Assembly (NCBI RefSeq): GCF_016925635.1
Contig: NZ_CP070490.1
Coordinates: 744,001 to 808,000 of the forward strand
Length of the DNA stretch: 64,000 bases
Reading direction: 5' to 3'
Source: Lysinibacillus fusiformis
GTDB lineage: Bacteria > Bacillota > Bacilli > Bacillales_A > Planococcaceae
The notes beneath the pieces are model-generated. The model had not been told where the DNA came from and did no database searches. It saw only the letters and a list, made by a program, of their open reading frames with translations. A program made the position numbers and the translations under genes. Shown here piece after piece: positions 9,080-54,913 of this stretch (its first letter is position 1; every line of letters begins with the position of its first letter).

Positions 9080-9697
9080 ATGATTTTAACAAAGCAAGAA
9101 GCAATGCAGGCACTTAAAAAGAACAAGTTCATCGGTTTTACTATTACAACAGGCAATATTATTATGAAAAAGATTAATAAAACCGAATATAATATTTTTG
9201 TTTTTGAAGAAGAAAGAGAGAAACCATTACGTTATGTAGGCTCTATCATGAACGTTATGGCGACAATGAGCGATAAAGCTTCCAAGAAAGATTTTGTGAT
9301 TGTTGAACAACTACCAGCAAGAAACAGTGCTGAAGAAACTCAATCTTCTGAACAGGAAGACATGACAGAAGAAAAAGTAGCGCCAATCGAAGAAAAACCT
9401 TTAGTTGAAGGTCAAGAAGAAAGCCGTGCGATTGCTGGCTATGAAGGGTTATATGAAATGACGATGAGTGGTCGAATTATTACGGTACGCGAAAACCGCC
9501 CATTGGCTCGTTGTAATGATGAATATGGCTTCCATATTGCACGACTAACAAAGGACGGCAAAGCATCTAGCCATAATGTTTTTGAACTTTGGAAACAGAC
9601 ATTCCCAGAGCTGGAGCATACTCTTTTCAAAGGTGCTTTAAAAGCTAAGTATGGTACAGGCTGTAAGCTAATCGATAAACCTGGTATCCATTTTTAA
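9080..9697 (+). CDS. small protein with a C-terminal NUMOD4-like motif
   Basis: 205 residues and no known full-length family. The first 80 residues form a compact alpha/beta unit (KNKFIGFTITTGNIIMKKI). An acidic linker (about 90-120) rich in Glu follows. The last 80 residues read IAGYEGLYEMTMSGRIITV then GFHIARLTKDGKASSHNVFELW, which resembles the NUMOD4 motif and following repeat of phage HNH/homing endonucleases that bind DNA. No HNH or GIY-YIG nuclease motif is present, so this would be a DNA-binding module without the nuclease. TTAGGAG precedes the ATG and a strong terminator follows. Confidence 0.7.
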   Translation: MILTKQEAMQALKKNKFIGFTITTGNIIMKKINKTEYNIFVFEEEREKPLRYVGSIMNVMATMSDKASKKDFVIVEQLPARNSAEETQSSEQEDMTEEKVAPIEEKPLVEGQEESRAIAGYEGLYEMTMSGRIITVRENRPLARCNDEYGFHIARLTKDGKASSHNVFELWKQTFPELEHTLFKGALKAKYGTGCKLIDKPGIHF

Positions 9698-16724: not shown

Positions 16725-16925
16725 TCACAAGAAAAAGTCCCAAAAACTAGGCGCGTCTTGAAATTTTACTGTTGCAAGCTTTTCTATAATTTTTAATTTA
16801 ATTTCTTGCTCTAGGTCTTCCCTTTCATGATAGTCTGTATTGTGTAAACAATGTTTAATTTTTGGGATGAAATTCTCGATTATTGTTAGCGTCTCTTCAG
16901 TATGTTGATTTTCTAAATTTCCCAT
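16725..16925 (-). CDS. rsoA: RsoA-like sigma co-factor
   Basis: 66 residues: ENFIPKIKHCLHNTDYHEREDLEQEIKLKIIEKL, then PSFWDFFL at the end. This matches the RsoA (YvrHa) type, which carries a sigma region-2-like helix and works with SigO as the two halves of one split sigma factor in Bacillus subtilis. The gene starts three bases after the sigO stop codon, with its GGGAGG inside the end of sigO, so the two are translationally coupled and made together, as in B. subtilis. It is slightly shorter than the B. subtilis protein as I recall it. A 7-bp hairpin without a T run (16678-16703) lies downstream. Confidence 0.8.
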   Translation of the reverse strand: MGNLENQHTEETLTIIENFIPKIKHCLHNTDYHEREDLEQEIKLKIIEKLATVKFQDAPSFWDFFL

Positions 16926-16928
16926 AGT

Positions 16929-17519
16929 TTATTCCTCCCTTTTTCCGAGTGAATGATTGAGTTTATTTAAAGCCTTTCTATGATGATTGGATATATTCTG
17001 GGGAGTTGTTTGTAATAGTTGAGCTATCTCTTTTATAGAAAGCTCTTTTACATAAATCATCTCTAAAATTTGAAGCTGTTTTACCGTTAGTTTTTGCAAG
17101 GACTTTAAGAGCTGTACATCTTCTATATTGTCCAATAATCCTCCACCAATTAAATGATCTAGACCATTTTCATTGCGTGTATCTTCTATTAGTTCTTTTA
17201 GGGTCGTCTCCCCCTCCTCTGATAATCCCTTATCTAATATTAATAAAGACCGATTTTGCAGCCTTCTTCTTTTTTTATCAAAATCTAAACTAAAGAAATA
17301 AATTAAATTACTTACATATTTGATCTTCCTAACATTTATATAGTGCGATTGAAAAGATTCATCAACGAGTTTCTTATTCAAATCAGTTGGATATAAGATC
17401 GCTTTTTGCACCAAATAAAGATTTTGGGAATCCGACAAAAAGCTTTTAATAATTGGATTGTTAACCTGCTCATTATTTCTATAGAAAAATTCCTCTATTT
17501 TTTGTTTATCATTCTTCAT
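16929..17519 (-). CDS. sigO: SigO-like RNA polymerase sigma factor
   Basis: 196 residues. The segment NPIIKSFLSDSQNLYL then HYINVRKIKYVSNLIYFFSLDFDKKRR strongly recalls SigO (YvrI) of B. subtilis. The last 50 residues are a sigma region 4 helix-turn-helix (LTVKQLQILEMIYVKELSIKEIAQLLQTTPQNISNHH). Region 2 is weak or absent, which fits the need for RsoA, encoded directly behind it. SigO-RsoA in B. subtilis drives the oxalate decarboxylase gene and yvrJ. Here yvrJ lies 630 bases away. An upstream copy of a motif shared by four local units (17551-17586) suggests autoregulation. GGAGGG precedes the ATG. Confidence 0.85.
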   Translation of the reverse strand: MKNDKQKIEEFFYRNNEQVNNPIIKSFLSDSQNLYLVQKAILYPTDLNKKLVDESFQSHYINVRKIKYVSNLIYFFSLDFDKKRRRLQNRSLLILDKGLSEEGETTLKELIEDTRNENGLDHLIGGGLLDNIEDVQLLKSLQKLTVKQLQILEMIYVKELSIKEIAQLLQTTPQNISNHHRKALNKLNHSLGKREE

Positions 17520-17550
17520 TTAATAATCCCTCCTATTATCCGCCTTCTTT

Positions 17551-17586
17551 CTATATAAAGTGAATGTTGTATCTATATTATAAACC
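17551..17586 (-). promoter_or_regulatory. candidate SigO-RsoA promoter of sigO-rsoA
   Basis: On the minus strand GGTTT (17586-17582) is followed 26 bases later, start to start, by CTTTATATAG (17560-17551), about 30 bases before the sigO start codon. The same two boxes at the same distance lie before the glutaredoxin-like gene and the tRNA-Cys. A sigma-A-like TATAAT at 17582-17577 overlaps it and could give basal expression. Confidence 0.55.
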
Positions 17587-17591
17587 AAAAT

Positions 17592-17607
17592 AAGAACAAG
17601 TGTTCTT
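17592..17607. promoter_or_regulatory. AAGAACA-N2-TGTTCTT inverted repeat upstream of sigO
   Basis: Seven-base arms around two bases, just upstream of the proposed sigO promoter. It contains GAAC-N4-GTTC, the core of the Firmicutes LexA (SOS) box, although the flanking bases differ from the best consensus. It may be the operator of a repressor acting on sigO. Confidence 0.45.
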
Positions 17608-17611
17608 AAAA

Positions 17612-17651
17612 AAGATAAAAAAATCACCTTTTATACAAAAAAGGTGATTTA
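17612..17651 (-). terminator. terminator after the glutaredoxin-like gene
   Basis: AAATCACCTTTT and AAAAGGTGATTT pair around a six-base loop and run into TTTT on the minus strand, separating this gene from sigO. Confidence 0.85.
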
Positions 17652-17662
17652 ATCCAACTTAG

Positions 17663-17905
17663 TTAAATTTCTAATATAGCTTTTATTTTTTCTGGCTGAT
17701 AACCAATAATTCTCTCTACTTTATTATCAGCGACTAATAAAGTAAATGGGATAGCGCTACTATTAAATTGCTTAAACTCCATTAATACGTGCTCTTCATT
17801 AATATCCTTATTAATATAAGTAATATTATTTTCCTCTAACCACTCCTTCAACCTAACACAATATTGACATCCATCGCTTGAATATACCGTTATATCATAC
17901 TTCAT
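17663..17905 (-). CDS. glutaredoxin/NrdH-like thiol-disulfide protein
   Basis: 80 residues: MKYDITVYSSDGCQYC with a CxxC active site, INKDINEE, then SAIPFTLLVADNKVERIIGY, where the cis-proline follows Ile as in glutaredoxins and NrdH. It is a small cytoplasmic redox protein. The ATG at 17905 is used because AAAGGAGG stands eight bases before it; longer upstream readings lack such a site. It is transcribed divergently from the tRNA-Cys/yvrJ unit and has a copy of the shared promoter motif. Together with the cysteine-rich bacteriocin nearby, a role in disulfide handling is possible, but that is inference. Confidence 0.8.
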   Translation of the reverse strand: MKYDITVYSSDGCQYCVRLKEWLEENNITYINKDINEEHVLMEFKQFNSSAIPFTLLVADNKVERIIGYQPEKIKAILEI

Positions 17906-17924
17906 CTTAGAGACCTCCTTTTTT

Positions 17925-17958
17925 CTATAAAGAGGATTACAACATAAGAAATGAAACC
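17925..17958 (-). promoter_or_regulatory. candidate SigO-RsoA promoter of the glutaredoxin-like gene
   Basis: GGTTT (17958-17954) and CTTTATAG (17932-17925) on the minus strand are 26 bases apart, start to start. The surrounding AATCCTCTTTA is repeated in inverted orientation in front of the tRNA-Cys. The distance to the ribosome binding site is very short, so any leader would be only about a dozen bases. Confidence 0.45.
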
Positions 17959-17986
17959 ATGACAAAATAATATTTTTTTATAGGCA

Positions 17987-18024
17987 GGTTGTTTTTATTA
18001 CAGAAGAATCCTCTTTACATAGTA
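17987..18024 (+). promoter_or_regulatory. candidate SigO-RsoA promoter of tRNA-Cys and yvrJ
   Basis: GGTTG (17987-17991) and CTTTACATAGTA (18013-18024) are 26 bases apart, start to start. The 12-base second box is identical to the one before the bacteriocin gene at 19745-19756. A start about eight bases after it would fall only a few bases before the tRNA. Confidence 0.55.
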
Positions 18025-18037
18025 CAGTTACAATTTT

Positions 18038-18108
<71 letters not shown>

Positions 18109-18149
18109 TATATTACTAATTTGGAGTAAGAGGGAGGGTGATTTACATT

Positions 18150-18323
18150 ATGACACCAGAAAATGTTCCAATTTGGATTAGCCTAATAGGAAACTTTGGA
18201 TTCCCTATTGCCATAACAGTCTATCTGTTCATTCGCTTTGAAAGGAAAATAGATAAATTAGAAGCTGTCATCATGGAGTTATCTGAAGTTATAAAATCTC
18301 TTAATTACAAGAAAGGAGGGTAA
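18150..18323 (+). CDS. yvrJ: YvrJ family small membrane protein
   Basis: 57 residues: a short N-terminus, one hydrophobic segment (WISLIGNFGFPIAITVYLFIRFE) and a charged amphipathic tail (KIDKLEAVIMELSEVIKSL). This is the YvrJ layout, which is also holin-like. In B. subtilis yvrJ belongs to the SigO-RsoA regulon. The ATG at 18150 is preferred, with GGAGGG eleven bases before; a GTG at 18138 in frame overlaps that site. The molecular function is not known. Confidence 0.8.
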   Translation: MTPENVPIWISLIGNFGFPIAITVYLFIRFERKIDKLEAVIMELSEVIKSLNYKKGG

Positions 18324-18328
18324 TCCAC

Positions 18329-18517
18329 ATGGAAATTGAAAAATTAATGGCCTGTTACTGTAAAGCAAGAGAAGTTCAATCATTTTATACAAATTGTTTA
18401 GCGAGTGACAGTCTGTCCCCAAAAGAACGCGATTTACTAATAAATCTTATACAAAATACTAGTATTTCTTCTAATTTATTGAGGGAATATTGTCAGATTC
18501 ATGCTAATGAAATATGA
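18329..18517 (+). CDS. small hypothetical protein in the yvrJ unit
   Basis: 62 residues, helical and without a membrane segment, with three cysteines near the N-terminal half (ACYCK, NCL). It starts five bases after the yvrJ stop; AAAGGAGG overlaps the end of yvrJ, showing coupling. A terminator follows. The family is not recognised. A short helix-rich Spo0E-like fold is conceivable from length and pattern (LLINLIQNTS), but no clear signature is present. Confidence 0.65.
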   Translation: MEIEKLMACYCKAREVQSFYTNCLASDSLSPKERDLLINLIQNTSISSNLLREYCQIHANEI

Positions 18518-18528
18518 TCTATTAACAA

Positions 18529-18593
18529 AATAAACCCATCAAATAATTTAGGTTAAGAACTACCTAATTTTATTTGATAGGTTTTAATTTTTA
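18529..18593 (+). terminator. terminator after the tRNA-Cys/yvrJ unit
   Basis: A long imperfect stem (AAACCCATCAAATAA..TTAGGT with ACCTAA..TTATTTGATAGGTTT) is followed by TAATTTTT. Confidence 0.8.
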
Positions 18594-18957
18594 ATAAGTG
18601 ATTTAAGCTTCTTTAAATCCAAACGTTCCTATTAAAAATGCTATTAGAAATATTATTAGCAAAATGGAATTGAGGATAATTAAAAGTAATTCTACTACCG
18701 CATCTCATACCATACCACTTTTTATACAGTCGAATAACAAGAAATCAACATTTATGGAGCAACTTTTATATTATTATGTAATGTCGATAATAAGGTTTTT
18801 TCATAATCTTTAAGTACTGACTATTATAAATAAAAAAAGGCAAAGTTGATTTCAGGCAAGGAATGGTTTATTCGATGTGATGAAAACTGTAAATAACACG
18901 TGTGGTATAATTGTAATAAAGTCAAACCTTCATTTACATACAAAGGGGCGGTGCTAT
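18594..18957. other. intergenic region, no gene seen
   Basis: 364 A/T-rich bases between the yvrJ-unit terminator and the next small gene. A TATAAT at 18905-18910 could be the -10 box of that gene. I see no open frame with a ribosome binding site, no tRNA and no clear repeat. Confidence 0.5.
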
Positions 18958-19209
18958 TTGCAAAGAAAAATTTTTACGTATTTATCAATAATTTTCTTGT
19001 TTTTAACATTTCTTATTGGATTGGCTCCTCAATATATTCTGGGAATTGGCATAACAATTCCATTTATTTTAGGAATTTCAGGACTAATATTTGCTATTTT
19101 AGGGATAAAGGGACCCACTCGTATGATTTTAGTTGTCCTTAATTCGTTTATATTAGTAGTGTTTATCGGGATTTATCTAATGGCTTTTTATGGATTTAAT
19201 AAACCTTAA
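18958..19209 (+). CDS. small membrane protein, unknown function
   Basis: 83 residues starting at TTG 18958 after GGGGCGG. Three hydrophobic stretches (IFTYLSIIFLFLTFLIGLA, GITIPFILGISGLIFAILGI, ILVVLNSFILVVFIGIYLMAF) fill most of the chain, so it is an integral membrane protein. It lies between the yvrJ unit and the bacteriocin gene, a usual place for immunity or export helpers, but nothing in the sequence proves that. The start is uncertain; an in-frame start at 18877 lacks a ribosome binding site. Confidence 0.5.
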   Translation: MQRKIFTYLSIIFLFLTFLIGLAPQYILGIGITIPFILGISGLIFAILGIKGPTRMILVVLNSFILVVFIGIYLMAFYGFNKP

Positions 19210-19718
19210 AAGAAGCAAAGTTTATCTTTAAAAGTCAGAATGATAGGAATTTTATGATAGTCTACAAAGAATAGCTATACTATATCTTCTTATAATAATC
19301 CATAGTATTTTTTAGGCTAAATAGATGAAAAGTATATAATTGGATTCTCGGGTCTTGCTTTTTTGTATTTGGTGCTTATGAGCCTTCATTATAATTGCCA
19401 AAAAGGCGTAGTTTTTGAGATGTTTTAGTATTGGTTAAAAATAAATGCGCGAATAGGTCCTAAATTATTTTTCAGAACAATATAAAGAAAAAATTGTACT
19501 TTTTATTTCTCTCTTAATCATTCTATTCTATTTAATTAAAATAACTATTAATTATAATGCATATTACCTATATTCTAAATGTACTACTTTAATCGTTTTA
19601 TCAAATTCCATAGATTCGAGCTATTAGCCTCCTTATTCATAACGTAACAAACCATTCAAAAGCATATAATTTCGTTTTATAGGTTTAATTTATATTTCCT
19701 GAAAAAAATTTAAAAATG
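19210..19718. other. intergenic region upstream of the bacteriocin gene
   Basis: About 500 A/T-rich bases with many stops in all frames. No gene, RNA or repeat is convincing. It may contain worn remains of a former gene. The right end leads into the promoter motif at 19719. Confidence 0.5.
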
Positions 19719-19756
19719 CAGTTTAAATCTCCAGTTGTATTTCACTTTACATAGTA
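19719..19756 (+). promoter_or_regulatory. candidate SigO-RsoA promoter of the bacteriocin gene
   Basis: AGTTTAAA from 19720 and CTTTACATAGTA at 19745-19756, with a spacer one base shorter than in the three other copies. The 12-base right box is identical to that in front of the tRNA-Cys. The bacteriocin start codon follows 56 bases later. Confidence 0.55.
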
Positions 19757-19811
19757 ATGAAGCACATCATACTAAATGTTGCTTCAAATACTTTAAAAGG
19801 GAGAGAAAACA

Positions 19812-20492
19812 ATGACTGAAAAACAAACTAAATCAGGAATTAAAGAGTTATCGAAAAATGAGGTTAACAATTTAGTTGAAAAAGCATTGGCAAATGAAAG
19901 TGTGCAGACGCTTATCAACAACTCACTAAATCATTACCCTGCTATTAAAGCTAAGTATACTGATCTTCGAGCTTTAATAACACAATCATTAGGCGGAGAA
20001 TTTACTAAAGGAACTACCCCTGTACAAGTTCTTACTTTAGTTATGGAAGAACTTCAGACAGTAATTACTTTTACTGTCGAAAACGCAGAATTTAAAGCTG
20101 TTTCGCATTTCCATGGTCATTCAAGTGTTATCGAAGTTACACAATCTGTTGGAGTAAATTTATTCCCAATTGTAACTATTAAGATTAATGGAGAGTATTT
20201 CGATTATGAATGGCACACAAACCCATTATATGATGTCAATGAATTACGTTCTTCTACACAAAATAATGAACTTAATCTAATGTGGTCAAATTGTACTATC
20301 TGTACTACTGTTTGTGACACTATCCAAGGTTTAGGATGTACCTTAGCTGGTACAGCAGCTTGTATGGTAGCTTGTGCTCCAATCGGTACTGTAGCGTGTC
20401 CATTTATTTGTGCAGCTGTTTTTGGATTAGTGTGCCTTAGCGAAAATAAGATCACATGTGGACCAGGTTGTAAATCATTAGGGTTTTGCTAA
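19812..20492 (+). CDS. halocin-C8-like cysteine-rich bacteriocin precursor
   Basis: 226 residues. The last 66 contain 12 cysteines and many small hydrophobic residues (CTICTTVCDT at the start, CKSLGFC at the very end), like the halocin C8 domain, which also ends in a Cys a few residues after the last Cys pair. The first 160 residues form a soluble leader without a signal peptide. In haloarchaeal halocin C8 the corresponding leader is the immunity protein HalI, so the same could hold here. It is surrounded by small membrane proteins and an intracellular subtilase that might cut leader from core. GGGAGAG precedes the ATG. Antibacterial activity is inferred only from the domain. Confidence 0.8.
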   Translation: MTEKQTKSGIKELSKNEVNNLVEKALANESVQTLINNSLNHYPAIKAKYTDLRALITQSLGGEFTKGTTPVQVLTLVMEELQTVITFTVENAEFKAVSHFHGHSSVIEVTQSVGVNLFPIVTIKINGEYFDYEWHTNPLYDVNELRSSTQNNELNLMWSNCTICTTVCDTIQGLGCTLAGTAACMVACAPIGTVACPFICAAVFGLVCLSENKITCGPGCKSLGFC

Positions 20493-20564
20493 ATAGAAAT
20501 AACAAGTTATAAAGTTAATATCTCCCCACCAATAATGTTATAATTAAAATAGGAGGGGAGATTC

Positions 20565-20798
20565 TTGTTAGCCTATAAGAGAATAATTATAATACATTTA
20601 CTTATTATGTTTTCTAGCATTTTTATTAGTTTTCAGATAAAAGGTATATGGATAGGATTACTTATATTTTTATTGGTGTATGCTTCTCTTTTTTGGTTGT
20701 TTATTGGACTACCTTATGCATTTCAAACAAAGTCGAAGTTTTTCGAAAGGTATTGGAATTGGTTAGTAAAAGGTGGGAAAATTGGTCCAAAAAGCTAA
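20565..20798 (+). CDS. small two-helix membrane protein, candidate bacteriocin accessory
   Basis: 77 residues beginning at TTG 20565, seven bases after a perfect AGGAGGGG. Two hydrophobic segments (IIIIHLLIMFSSIFISF, IWIGLLIFLLVYASLFWLFIGL) precede a positively charged tail. It follows the bacteriocin precursor by 72 bases and shares its downstream terminator. Size, charge and place match many bacteriocin immunity or export-helper proteins, but there is no recognised family. Confidence 0.6.
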   Translation: MLAYKRIIIIHLLIMFSSIFISFQIKGIWIGLLIFLLVYASLFWLFIGLPYAFQTKSKFFERYWNWLVKGGKIGPKS

Positions 20799-21002: not shown

Positions 21003-21926
21003 ATGAAATATGAAATCATTTTAGAGCGGGTAAAAGTGGTCAAGTTGTTTAAAGTTTTAAATGCAGTTCCTGATAATTTAGATAAGATTCGAGCAAGGGA
21101 ATTTTGGCAAGAAACAGATCAAGGTTCAGGATCTGTTATTGCTGTATTAGATAGTGGTGTTCAGGTTGACCACCCGAGTTTAAAGGACAATATTATTGAT
21201 GGCTATAATTTCACAGATGATGATGAAGGTAATCCTTCAATATTTAAAGATTATCTTGGACATGGTACACATGTAGCTGGAATTCTAGCTGCTGTTGATA
21301 ATGGCAAGGGAATCACAGGTATTGCGCCAAAAAGTAAACTTCTTATATTAAAAGTAATAAATCACAAAGGAAGAGGAAGCTTTGAAAGTTTGATTAAGGC
21401 GATTATGTATGCAGTTAATTGGACTGGACCTAATGGAGAAAAAGTAAACATTATTAATATGTCACTTGGCAGCCCAGAACCAAATGAAGAATTGCATAAA
21501 GCCATAAAATATGCCCGTTCAAAAGGTATAGTATTAGTTGCAGCAGCGGGAAATGAGGGCGATGGAGAAAGCGCAACTATCGAAATATCATACCCTGGTT
21601 TTTACAAGGAAGTAATTCAAGTCGGCTCTATATCTGAAACAGATACGCCTTCAAAATTTTCTAATACGAATGTTAACTTAGATTTTGTAGGGCCTGGTGA
21701 AAATATATTATCAACGCATTTAAACAGTGATTATGTAGAATTGACAGGAACCTCTATGGCAGCTCCGTTTGTTGCCGGTGCGGCTGCACTTATCATAAAA
21801 ATAATCAAACATTGTGAACCCCATTTGATTCCAATGTATGTATTTGACTACTTGTTAACTCATGCTCTTTCATTGGATCATTTCTCCATTAATCAGGTAG
21901 GGAATGGTTTTATTCAGTTGAAATAA
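21003..21926 (+). CDS. intracellular-subtilisin-like S8 serine protease
   Basis: 307 residues without a signal peptide, collinear with the Bacillus intracellular subtilisin Isp. The catalytic Asp is in AVLDSGVQVDHPS, His in GHGTHVAGIL, the oxyanion Asn in AAAGNEGDG and Ser in GTSMAAPFVAG. Isp carries a short N-terminal inhibitory LIPY motif; here that place reads LFKV, so self-inhibition may differ. The residue after AAP is Phe where most subtilases have His. It directly follows the bacteriocin unit, so maturation of the precursor inside the cell is an attractive but unproven role. AAAGGAG precedes the ATG, and a terminator follows. Confidence 0.85.
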   Translation: MKYEIILERVKVVKLFKVLNAVPDNLDKIRAREFWQETDQGSGSVIAVLDSGVQVDHPSLKDNIIDGYNFTDDDEGNPSIFKDYLGHGTHVAGILAAVDNGKGITGIAPKSKLLILKVINHKGRGSFESLIKAIMYAVNWTGPNGEKVNIINMSLGSPEPNEELHKAIKYARSKGIVLVAAAGNEGDGESATIEISYPGFYKEVIQVGSISETDTPSKFSNTNVNLDFVGPGENILSTHLNSDYVELTGTSMAAPFVAGAAALIIKIIKHCEPHLIPMYVFDYLLTHALSLDHFSINQVGNGFIQLK

Positions 21927-22896: not shown

Positions 22897-23394
22897 TTAG
22901 AAATACAGCACCATATAATCCTCATCAAAATATTGCTGTCCTATTTTTAAGGCGTTTCGCTCTGTTCCAAAAACGTGAAAGCCTAACGATGTGTATAATC
23001 CCTTTGCTGATTCATTGGAAGACACAACTGTTAAATTAATTTGTTCGACGTCTACTAGTGATTTTGCTTGATTGATGACCTCTACCATTAGTTGTTTTCC
23101 AATGCCCAATCCTCGCTTTTTTGGTGAAACATAAACGGCAAAAATGCTCGCTTTATGCTTTAGCTTCATTTTATTTGCTTGCACCAATGTTGCCACACCG
23201 AGTAATTCCTCCTGGTCAAATGCACCAAATGTAAATGTTCCTTGTCCTTCGAGCCTACTTGCAAACGACTCAAGTGACAAATCCTTTTCTTCCTCGAAGC
23301 TAGAGCCAAAAGCTTCAGGATTTGTTTGCAATCCCTCTAACCTTAAATCTCTATATACCTCAGCATCAGCTGCTGTTAATTGTCTAATTTCCAT
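22897..23394 (-). CDS. GNAT family N-acetyltransferase
   Basis: 165 residues: IRQLTAADAEVYRDLRLEGL at the start, the acetyl-CoA loop VSPKKRGLGIGKQLMVEVINQA (R/Q-x-x-G-x-G/A), then NLTVVSSNESAKGLYTSLGF, the full GNAT pattern. It transfers an acetyl group to an amine of unknown identity. The ATG at 23394 is chosen because GGGAGGG stands seven bases before it; the longer reading from 23409 overlaps that site. Confidence 0.9.
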   Translation of the reverse strand: MEIRQLTAADAEVYRDLRLEGLQTNPEAFGSSFEEEKDLSLESFASRLEGQGTFTFGAFDQEELLGVATLVQANKMKLKHKASIFAVYVSPKKRGLGIGKQLMVEVINQAKSLVDVEQINLTVVSSNESAKGLYTSLGFHVFGTERNALKIGQQYFDEDYMVLYF

Positions 23395-53248: not shown

Positions 53249-54418
53249 ATGACTAAAAAGCGCACAACGTCGATTGAAAGTTATACCTTGGCGAACGGAG
53301 AAAAGCGTTATAAGTTCCAAATTTATGTTGGAGTTGACCCTCTAACAGGAAAAGAAAAGCGTACCACTCGAAGCGGCTTTAAAAGGAAGAAAGAAGCTGA
53401 ACTAGCACTAGCACGAATAAAGCTTGAAATTTCTAAAGGTACGTTTCGGAAAGTACAAGCTGAAACCTACCAAGATATTTACGACTTGTGGATAAGGCAA
53501 TATGAGAAAATTGTAGAAGAAAGTACATTCGTTAAAACAGAAGGTATATTCCGCAACCATATATTACCTCATTTAGGTTTATATAAAATTGATAAGTTAA
53601 ATGTTGAGGTATGTCAAGAACATGTAGATAAATGGGCAAATAAACTTAAAAAGTATCGAATTATAAAATCCTACGCCGCAAAAGTAGTTGATTTTGCTAT
53701 TAAGCGTGGCTATATGCAAATCAACCCATTTAAGCTAGTTGATATGCCGAAGATAAAAAAAGAACCGCTTGAATTAGTGAAAGAAGTAGATGAAAATTTT
53801 TATACGCGTGAACAATTAAATAAGTTCCTTGATTACTTAAAAAAGGAAAATAAACCGAAAGTATATGTCCTTTTTAGACTTCTAGCTTATTCAGGAATGC
53901 GTAAAGGCGAAGCTTTAGCCCTTAACTGGAAGGATATAGACTTTAAAAACGATGAAATACGAATCAATAAAGCTATATCGAGGGGAAAAGATAATAAGCT
54001 ATATCTGAAAACGACGAAAACGGGTTCTATTCGAACAATTAAAATGGAGAAAGAAACGATGCGTACGTTAGCTTTATGGAAAAAGCAACAACAAAAGGAT
54101 TACCTAATTTTAGGGTTTAATACACTAAATGAAGAGCAGCTCGTGTTTAGTAATAAAGAAAATGAATTCTTACAGCCTACTAAAACTCGCAAATGGCTAG
54201 TTGATATACTAAAAAAATATAACCTAAAGCCAATTACTACACATGGGCTACGTCATACACACTGCTCCCTCCTATTCGAAGCGGGTGCGAATATTAAAGA
54301 AGTTCAAGACCGTTTAGGTCATTCCGATATTAAAACAACAATGGATATATATACTCACCTAACCCAAGAAGCTAAATCAGAGACTATTCGAAAATTCGAT
54401 AACTACCTGAATAATTAG
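53249..54418 (+). CDS. int: tyrosine recombinase / integrase of the element
   Basis: 389 residues with three parts: an N-terminal arm-binding domain (RYKFQIYVGVDPLTGKEKRTTRSGF), a core-binding helical domain (about 65-165) and the catalytic domain. The active residues are visible: Arg in YSGMRKGEALALNW, His-x-x-Arg in THGLRHTHCSLL, His in DRLGHSDIKTT, and the nucleophile Tyr in MDIYTHL. Tn916/ICE-type integrases have this layout. The ATG at 53249 follows GGGAGG. The gene ends 142 bases from the attachment site at ssrA, the usual place. Confidence 0.95.
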   Translation: MTKKRTTSIESYTLANGEKRYKFQIYVGVDPLTGKEKRTTRSGFKRKKEAELALARIKLEISKGTFRKVQAETYQDIYDLWIRQYEKIVEESTFVKTEGIFRNHILPHLGLYKIDKLNVEVCQEHVDKWANKLKKYRIIKSYAAKVVDFAIKRGYMQINPFKLVDMPKIKKEPLELVKEVDENFYTREQLNKFLDYLKKENKPKVYVLFRLLAYSGMRKGEALALNWKDIDFKNDEIRINKAISRGKDNKLYLKTTKTGSIRTIKMEKETMRTLALWKKQQQKDYLILGFNTLNEEQLVFSNKENEFLQPTKTRKWLVDILKKYNLKPITTHGLRHTHCSLLFEAGANIKEVQDRLGHSDIKTTMDIYTHLTQEAKSETIRKFDNYLNN

Positions 54419-54429
54419 CTTAAAATCTT

Positions 54430-54465
54430 ACTACGGTTTTAACTACGACCTTAACTACGGTTAAT
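54430..54465. repeat. right arm-type integrase sites
   Basis: Three consecutive 12-base units beginning ACTACGGTTTTA, ACTACGACCTTA and ACTACGGTTAAT, 95 bases inside the right core. They share ACTACGG with the left end. Confidence 0.75.
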
Positions 54466-54493
54466 TATAATTGAACGAAATCATATGATATAG

Positions 54494-54536
54494 AAAAAAC
54501 GCCAAAACCCGTATAAGTCAAGGGTTTTGACGTTCA
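54494..54536 (-). terminator. terminator behind ssrA
   Basis: AACG.CAAAACCC and GGGTTTTG.CGTT pair, and on the minus strand TTTTTT follows. It lies inside the element but downstream of ssrA, so it now ends the tmRNA transcript; it may also serve the integrase gene. Confidence 0.75.
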
Positions 54537-54559
54537 ATGAATCTCAATGAAATCTTTAA

Positions 54560-54583
54560 ATGGAGACGGCGGGAGTCGAACCC
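54560..54583 (-). repeat. proximal attachment site within ssrA
   Basis: 24 bases forming the T arm and acceptor end of tmRNA, identical to 44909-44932. Integration here keeps the tmRNA sequence intact. Confidence 0.9.
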
Positions 54584-54913
54584 GCGTCCAGAAACTCCAA
54601 TACTTCAGCTTCTACGCGTGTAGTTTGCCTATTTACGATTCACGTAACATTATGCCGACAAACAGGCGTCCTGTACGCTAACCTGGAAATCTCTTGCCGA
54701 TGACTCAGGTGGTACCATCGACCGTATCCCACTAAAGTTGGGCCCCACGTTCTCTACATGGGCGATAGAGAGGCAGAGCGCTTACGAGCTTACGCTGCGA
54801 AAGCTAAGTTTTGTTGTTTGCCAGTTATTATATAACTGTCGTTGATGACGGAGCCGAGCCCTCCGACGCGCGACTAAAGCTTGAACCATCCCTGTCGAAT
54901 CCGTAACGTCCCC
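54561..54913 (-). ncRNA. ssrA: tmRNA
   Basis: 353 nt. The 5' end GGGGACGTTACGGATTCGAC and the 3' end GGTTCGACTCCCGCCGTCTCCA form the tRNA-like part, with seven acceptor pairs including one G-U. CCA is not encoded beyond the discriminator A. The tag frame at 54822-54790 reads GKQQNLAFAA and a TAA stop, to which the charged Ala adds the first residue. It rescues stalled ribosomes together with SmpB, encoded just upstream on the same strand. A TATATT box lies four bases before the 5' end. Confidence 0.97.

Follow-up and report, generated by a model that had tools for sequence, protein, structure and literature searches.

A window of 64,000 bp from the Lysinibacillus fusiformis genome (bases 744001-808000 of a 5.01-Mb single contig; "the window" below means this whole stretch) holds the split sigma factor SigO-RsoA together with an isolated tRNA-Cys gene and the gene of a precursor protein with a cysteine-rich tail. 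Comparison with other SigO loci makes it probable that these genes belong to a widespread, partly plasmid-borne module of Bacilli, in which SigO-RsoA is accompanied by a dedicated tRNA-Cys that supports the synthesis of a cysteine-rich product. We lean, by a little over even chances, toward a broader proposition, namely that such modules represent a class of bacterial gene sets that encode and control an elongator tRNA of their own, unlike the housekeeping copy in type, to satisfy the need of one kind of product for a particular amino acid. Charged-tRNA supply would then lie within a sigma-factor regulon, and the tRNA would move with the module across genera and plasmids, tracking the composition of the product and not its family. 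The parts named in a first-pass annotation of the window, namely RsoA, SigO, a glutaredoxin-like (Grx) protein with a CxxC motif, an isolated tRNA-Cys with YvrJ and a precursor with 12 cysteines, were all recovered with protein family models, ARAGORN, Rfam and the open reading frame (ORF) list (Table 1), the tail being 69 residues long. RsoA, SigO and Grx are encoded on the minus strand, and the genes from tRNA-Cys and YvrJ through an S8 protease run divergently on the plus strand.

tRNA-Cys accompanies cysteine-rich products in SigO loci

SigO loci were gathered irrespective of tRNAs, through protein and profile searches in the genus, family and class and a scan of named genomes (at least 70 loci); the order-level search sample consisted of the same 261 genomes as the family-level one. 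Locus stretches were read up to 20 kb, some being shorter where contigs end. The survey set comprised the window and 207 loci, of which 188 have non-identical SigO; 20 class-level stretches, genome G186 and some weak class matches stood outside it. Leadered cysteine-rich products, referred to here as cargos, were called by rule and then curated by eye before counting, and the rule-called cysteine-rich ORFs of eight loci (L130, L154, L186, L201, L206, L213, L223 and L242) were discarded by eye as antisense, repetitive or unrelated.

The results showed that 20 of the 188 non-identical loci carry a tRNA-Cys within 10 kb of SigO, and that 15 of these 20, against 9 of the 168 tRNA-negative loci, carry a cargo (Fisher 3e-12). 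Read from the cargo side, the same counts place tRNA-Cys in 15 of 24 loci with cargo and in 5 of 164 without. Grx followed the tRNA in the same manner (17/20 versus 9/168; 5e-15), as did the S8 gene (12/20 versus 22/168), while YvrJ was similarly frequent in tRNA-positive (15/20) and tRNA-negative loci (134/168). After SigO had been clustered at 60% identity into 82 clusters, the counts were 12/14 versus 8/68 for cargo and 11/14 versus 5/68 for Grx. tRNAs of other kinds within 10 kb of SigO occurred in six of the 188 loci, plus one gene of L057 that ARAGORN called tRNA-Tyr. The latter (9233-9301) was read instead as a decayed tRNA-Cys; it stands beside SigO-RsoA-YvrJ, at the position that the intact tRNA-Cys occupies in L059.

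The gene order Grx-tRNA-Cys-precursor was observed in L054, L203 and L232. The module of Salibacterium salarium contains two identical tRNA-Cys genes (L203 4442-4515 and 6574-6647), and in G416 (L232) the set of cargo, tRNA and Grx/SigO-RsoA occurs twice in a row. The linkage of SigO-RsoA, Grx, tRNA-Cys and a cysteine-rich precursor, which the first-pass annotation had proposed from the window alone, thus extends well beyond a local accident: a tRNA-Cys was found in SigO loci of 11 named genera (Lysinibacillus, Sporosarcina, Virgibacillus, Lederbergia, Cytobacillus, Priestia, Salibacterium, Bacillus, Parageobacillus, Geobacillus and Salimicrobium), in those of further genera and families (G119, G145, G152, G416 and G442), and on plasmids.

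The plasmid collection, searched with module-type SigO, gave 27 records with 29 places, and the search with cargo gave eight records, all among the 27. One region was taken per record, with the cargo at the centre of five and SigO at that of the others; a plasmid cargo was defined as an ORF of 130-380 aa with a CCxxHD pattern. tRNA-Cys was present in 14 of the 15 regions with cargo and in 1 of the 12 without (P 1e-5; 15/27 overall), and after removal of near-duplicate plasmids in 7/8 versus 1/9 (P 0.003). The 27 regions contain 16 tRNA-Cys genes in total and no tRNA of any other kind. In Bacillus velezensis plasmids (L290, L302) and Bacillus subtilis plasmids (L279, L303), the tRNA ends 25-26 bases 5′ of the annotated cargo start. 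Four SigO plasmid regions lacking such a cargo (L282, L283, L286 and L289), with an annotated lysozyme, amidase or cell-wall hydrolase, do not contain tRNA-Cys, and the amidase-bearing plasmid L291 has both tRNA-Cys and cargo. SigO-RsoA lies beside cell-wall genes in these four regions, which suggests that cell-wall or toxin-like products are frequent outputs of this sigma factor family.

Three unrelated cargo types share only cysteine

All 12 cysteines of the window precursor lie within residues 158-226. Cysteine makes up 5.3% of the precursor and 17% of its tail, the average of the 42 non-overlapping ORFs of at least 150 aa in the window being 0.82%. Inspection by eye revealed no signal peptide in the window precursor or in the other cargo leaders. 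Across the modules, the cargo tails fell into three unrelated types: a halocin-C8-like tail with 12 cysteines (the window and L054), a tail with 14 cysteines (L055, L155 and L157), and a phospholipase-A2-like tail in most others. Matches of cargos to TIGR04449, PF00068 and PF08398 were all under the curated cut-offs. The first-pass annotation had tied the tRNA to the putative bacteriocin of the window; this tie did not survive, since tRNA-Cys accompanies all three types, most often the phospholipase-A2-like one. Because cysteine is the only thing common to the three tails, we prefer a role in supply over one bound to the chemistry of a single product.

The cargo type of the window itself appears to be rare. 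The window precursor had no Pfam match and no match in the plasmid or phage collections, and of 398 genomes from the class a two-sequence precursor profile matched just two, G000 and G002 (G012, which is in the profile, was evidently outside that sample). A PDB sequence search with the window tail gave nothing useful, and one with a related cargo gave only weak matches to phospholipase A2.

The module tRNA-Cys is intact and differs from the host copy

The ordinary tRNA-Cys of the window genome is one of 16 or more clustered tRNA genes, so the window tRNA-Cys is an isolated second copy. The window tRNA-Cys has the cloverleaf, the GCA anticodon and U73, and a T stands 3′ of the acceptor stem in 19/19 aligned rows. 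Among 19 aligned sequences (18 from modules, one ordinary), both sides had changed in 9 of 21 stem pairs, and 0/500 shuffles were as high, a measure on which related sequences may exceed shuffles, though rarely. CCA is encoded in 4/20 module tRNAs and in 8/8 ordinary ones. An ordinary tRNA-Cys was found in eight hosts; the search in G012 gave the module copy only, perhaps through assembly gaps. For all eight module tRNAs with a known host copy, similarity to the best-matching tRNA from a different module (82-96%) exceeded that to the ordinary tRNA-Cys of the host (75-80%), and on this comparison the modules appear to carry a tRNA-Cys type of their own. In the Bacillus arachidis plasmid L277 (6401-6553), two tRNA-Cys-like genes stand in tandem, one with an altered anticodon arm.

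A SigO-type promoter-like motif precedes the tRNA

A two-box matrix was derived by expectation-maximization on SigO upstream regions, using representatives of 101 tRNA-Cys-free clusters with at least 100 upstream bases. tRNA-negative loci were chosen because training on the loci being scored would be circular; a first motif scoring, built after those loci had been viewed, was dropped on this ground and superseded by the tRNA-negative matrix. The best unseeded model was GGTTGT-N20-CTTTATAt. On both strands of the window, the site of tRNA-Cys had the top score, and those of SigO and Grx ranked third and fourth (Table 1). The second-best match (23090-23123, plus strand, 15.6 bits) is upstream of none of the recognised module genes. 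Both boxes of the tRNA-Cys site are conserved in L041, L043 and L044, and in L040 GGTTGT is changed to AGTTGT.

Among the 20 tRNA-positive loci, the motif matched 12 tRNA-Cys upstream regions at −47 to −57, with 13.7-21.4 bits and 0/300 dinucleotide shuffles reaching each score, four of the 12 (the window, L041, L043 and L044) being one orthologous locus. Strong sites were also frequent at the cargo genes of other modules, for example L060 (21.4 bits), L231 (19.8), L208 (19.3) and L061 (17.6). The earlier proposal that four units in the window share a two-box motif therefore stands for tRNA-Cys (18.5 bits), SigO (15.3) and Grx (15.1) and weakens at the precursor, whose site reaches 9.3 bits with a 19-base spacer. 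Co-control by SigO, likewise proposed there, is well supported by the motif for the tRNA and weakly for the precursor.

From these features we infer how the module may work. SigO-RsoA, as a two-part sigma factor, would turn on the cysteine-rich product plus its helpers, including a tRNA-Cys from a lineage particular to the modules. Active SigO-RsoA would transcribe tRNA-Cys (in the window jointly with yvrJ and the gene of a 62-aa protein), Grx and sigO itself; the additional tRNA-Cys would enlarge the pool of Cys-tRNA, allowing the cysteine-rich precursor to be made in quantity, and the CxxC and CxC proteins may handle the thiols of the precursor ahead of its putative secretion.

Evidence against a strict coupling and alternative explanations

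Several observations weigh against this interpretation. Five of the 20 tRNA-positive loci have no visible cargo within 10 kb (L041, L043, L044, L150 and L164, the contig of the last being 3.5 kb), nine loci have a cargo and no tRNA-Cys within 10 kb, and the majority of SigO loci have neither. Of the plasmids, L287 combines tRNA-Cys with Grx and an amidase, yet no cargo was seen, and L278 lacks tRNA-Cys although it bears cargo, Grx, S8 and SigO. The tRNA state changes 14 times on the SigO tree (178 rows), and an independent-pairs test gave, for cargo, 3.9 pairs in the same and 0.1 in the opposite direction of 7 (median p 0.125) and, for Grx, 4.5 and 0.1 (median p 0.06), the supported pairs being too few in both cases; the direction favours tRNA with cargo and tRNA with Grx. 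As for the motif, the score of the precursor site is matched or exceeded by 3/46 control upstream regions and 34/984 tiles in the window. The motif was not significant in 8/20 tRNA upstream regions; in three of these the tRNA is behind Grx and the site lies 5′ of Grx instead (L054 19.8, L188 21.1 and L129 14.4 bits). The matrix scan found no strong SigO-type site for the tRNA of L059, L070, L087, L150 and L164, nor for the cargo genes of L203, L087, L205 and two of three in L195. A regular expression of the motif was not enriched across genome G000 (15 matches versus 16 in the reversed control). Moreover, tRNA-Cys(GCA) decodes the same cysteine codons as the ordinary tRNA-Cys, which leaves no codon argument.

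The comparison of related genomes, which had been set beforehand as the test on which the pairing could fail, went against it within the genus: among nine close SigO orthologues, tRNA-Cys is kept in five (G000, G002, G017, G019 and G022), whereas the putative bacteriocin is intact in two. G017 retains a bacteriocin fragment with a stop, and in G019 a full-length phospholipase-like cargo lies at another place in the genome. G017 and G022 gave only a short match (frame 88 aa), of a kind present in 10/10 Lysinibacillus genomes searched, some with stops. In eight orthologues at greater distance, both tRNA and cargo are missing. Since close relatives keep tRNA-Cys without the bacteriocin, the tie holds at the level of the module and is leaky.

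The tRNA could alternatively act outside translation, with Cys-tRNA serving a modifying enzyme as donor or the tRNA itself directing processing or regulation at the head of an mRNA. tRNA-dependent peptide enzymes exist, and the tRNA often opens a unit in which yvrJ or the precursor follows closely (the window, L279 and L290). Elsewhere, however, it lies 3′ of Grx, after RsoA or distant from the cargo, and with positions so varied among modules a fixed place at the head of an mRNA is absent; no known Cys-tRNA-using enzyme was recognised among the module genes read, where no model search was aimed at such enzymes. We regard a non-translational function as unlikely. Quite improbable is a tRNA-Cys that would replace the ordinary copy under stress, restoring cysteine decoding for any protein when that copy is scarce or damaged. 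It would fit the difference from the housekeeping tRNA-Cys, the motif of an alternative sigma factor and the loci that hold a tRNA without cargo, but it sits poorly with the tracking of cargo by the tRNA (14/15 versus 1/12 among the plasmid SigO loci, and the corresponding skew in the survey set).

The least probable of the alternatives considered is that integration left the tRNA-Cys behind as a remnant or marker, the modules having been moved by elements attaching at a tRNA gene of which a copy remained. tRNA genes are common integration sites, the patchy distribution with its 14 changes on the SigO tree is of the expected kind, an annotated recombinase or integrase lies 2-9 kb from the tRNA on plasmids L276, L281, L287 and L302, and an integrase-family gene lies within 5 kb of two tRNA-less SigO loci of G012 (C53 and C57). 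On the other hand, among the matches listed no integrase was found within 30 kb of the tRNA in the chromosomal tRNA-positive modules of 12 genomes, the contigs of L054 and L087 being 23 and 35 kb; the tRNA stands between Grx and precursor in several loci; and attachment sites are not expected to follow the cysteine of a cargo. The SigO-type site in 12/20, the covarying intact fold and the dissimilarity to the host tRNA-Cys argue in the same direction, and the dedicated supply of tRNA-Cys to a cysteine-rich product remains the explanation that we prefer.

Relation to known systems

Bacillus subtilis SigO-RsoA (YvrI-YvrHa), which controls oxdC, is a split sigma factor of the same kind, and in the window YvrJ is likewise nearby. 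According to the available excerpt of a report on that system, SigO and RsoA are two halves that must cooperate at PoxdC, the promoter of oxalate decarboxylase, which is the output named; a tRNA, Grx or a cysteine-rich product is not mentioned in that excerpt (PMC10028694). The window tail resembles the halocin C8-like bacteriocins (TIGR04449) in being a short cysteine-rich domain that ends a longer precursor and aligns over most of the model, but its score places it outside the family by that test (Table 1). Similarly, the CCxxHD of phospholipase A2 domains (PF00068, PF08398) is found in most cargos of related modules, and in 6/7 scanned cargos with any phospholipase match the hits to Pfam were weak, all below gathering (best 31.1 versus 32.1); the cargo of the window is of another type.

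Phages and plasmids carry tRNA genes that match their own codon use. The module resembles them as a mobile element with its own tRNA, and differs in having a single isoacceptor that is tied by composition to one kind of product and by a motif to a sigma factor. Searches of open-licence PMC papers listed no described case of a SigO regulon that contains a tRNA, nor of a cysteine-rich peptide locus that contains a tRNA-Cys. If the proposed function is true, the module would be a natural case of a cell or mobile module raising one charged tRNA alongside the protein that needs it, and would make testable, in soil bacteria, the old question of whether bacterial tRNA supply is tuned to single products. 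The role of the SigO-RsoA family would widen past oxalate decarboxylase, and a tRNA-Cys beside SigO would serve as a handle for locating unannotated cysteine-rich products.

Features of the window locus and minor observations

Table 1. Module genes and promoter-like sites of the window (coordinates count from the first base of the window)
Feature	Position	Strand	Basis and remarks
RsoA, region-2-like half of split sigma factor	16725..16925	-	NCBIfam PRK14082.1 100 bits, cut-off 86
SigO-like sigma factor (region 4), 196 aa	16929..17519	-	Sigma70_r4_2 41.8 bits, gathering 25.7; adjoins RsoA
SigO-type promoter-like site of sigO	17553..17586	-	GGTTTA-N20-CTTTATAT; 15.3 bits
Glutaredoxin-like protein (Grx), 80 aa, CxxC = CQYC	17663..17905	-	PF00462 32.6 bits, gathering 22.9
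SigO-type promoter-like site of Grx gene	17925..17958	-	GGTTTC-N20-CTTTATAG; 15.1 bits
SigO-type promoter-like site of tRNA-Cys	17987..18020	+	GGTTGT-N20-CTTTACAT; 18.5 bits; 0/300 shuffles
tRNA-Cys (GCA), CCA not encoded, second genome copy	18038..18108	+	ARAGORN; RF00005 61.8 bits, gathering 29
YvrJ family small protein, directly 3′ of tRNA-Cys, same strand	18150..18323	+	PF12841 58.5 bits, gathering 29.5
62-aa protein, CxC and two further Cys	18329..18517	+	relatives in L060, L087, L129, L150, L195, L208
Small hydrophobic protein, possibly immunity or export, membership uncertain	18961..19209	+	relatives in L040, L044, weak in L149; each beside module
Weak promoter-like site of precursor	19720..19752	+	AGTTTA-N19-CTTTACAT; 9.3 bits
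Precursor, 226 aa, leader and Cys-rich tail	19812..20492	+	ORF list; 29-30% identical homologue in G012 (L054)
Cys-rich tail, halocin-C8-like, 12 Cys in 69 residues	20283..20489	+	TIGR04449 15 bits, cut-off 24, model positions 1-58 of 69
Small hydrophobic protein 3′ of precursor, possibly immunity	20565..20798	+	relatives in L040-L044, L046, L047
S8 subtilisin-like protease, possible leader protease	21003..21926	+	PF00082 186.6 bits

The window RsoA scored 67.1 bits with the sigO_reg_RsoA model, under its cut-off of 100, and the region-2 family was absent among the Pfam matches of the window SigO. Protein and profile searches found SigO relatives across the family, and among the named-genome matches listed the window SigO protein is nearest to that of Lysinibacillus boronitolerans (96%), a species with the same locus (L040, L137). 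The 62-aa CxC protein of the window matched nothing in Pfam or NCBIfam at E 0.01; in L061 this small-protein family is apparently fused to the C-terminus of an S8 protease. The small hydrophobic proteins flanking the precursor are candidates for immunity.

Modules with phospholipase-like cargo (L059, L060, L275, L276, L278 and L281) encode an ABC transporter ATPase with proteins of about 205 and 680 aa, and several of them also encode a protein of about 130 aa, which may form an export or immunity set with the other co-carried genes. In the Priestia megaterium plasmid L283, a threonyl-tRNA synthetase gene (17519-19444) stands 7 kb away from a tRNA-less SigO-RsoA pair. A match of the motif regular expression at 447784, beside ORFs that we take to resemble lrgA/lrgB, was discarded. 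Further along the window (53801-54913), a match to the phage integrase family (genome 797801-798367) lies about 190 bases from the transfer-messenger RNA (tmRNA) gene (54561-54913), where an element may be integrated at the tmRNA.

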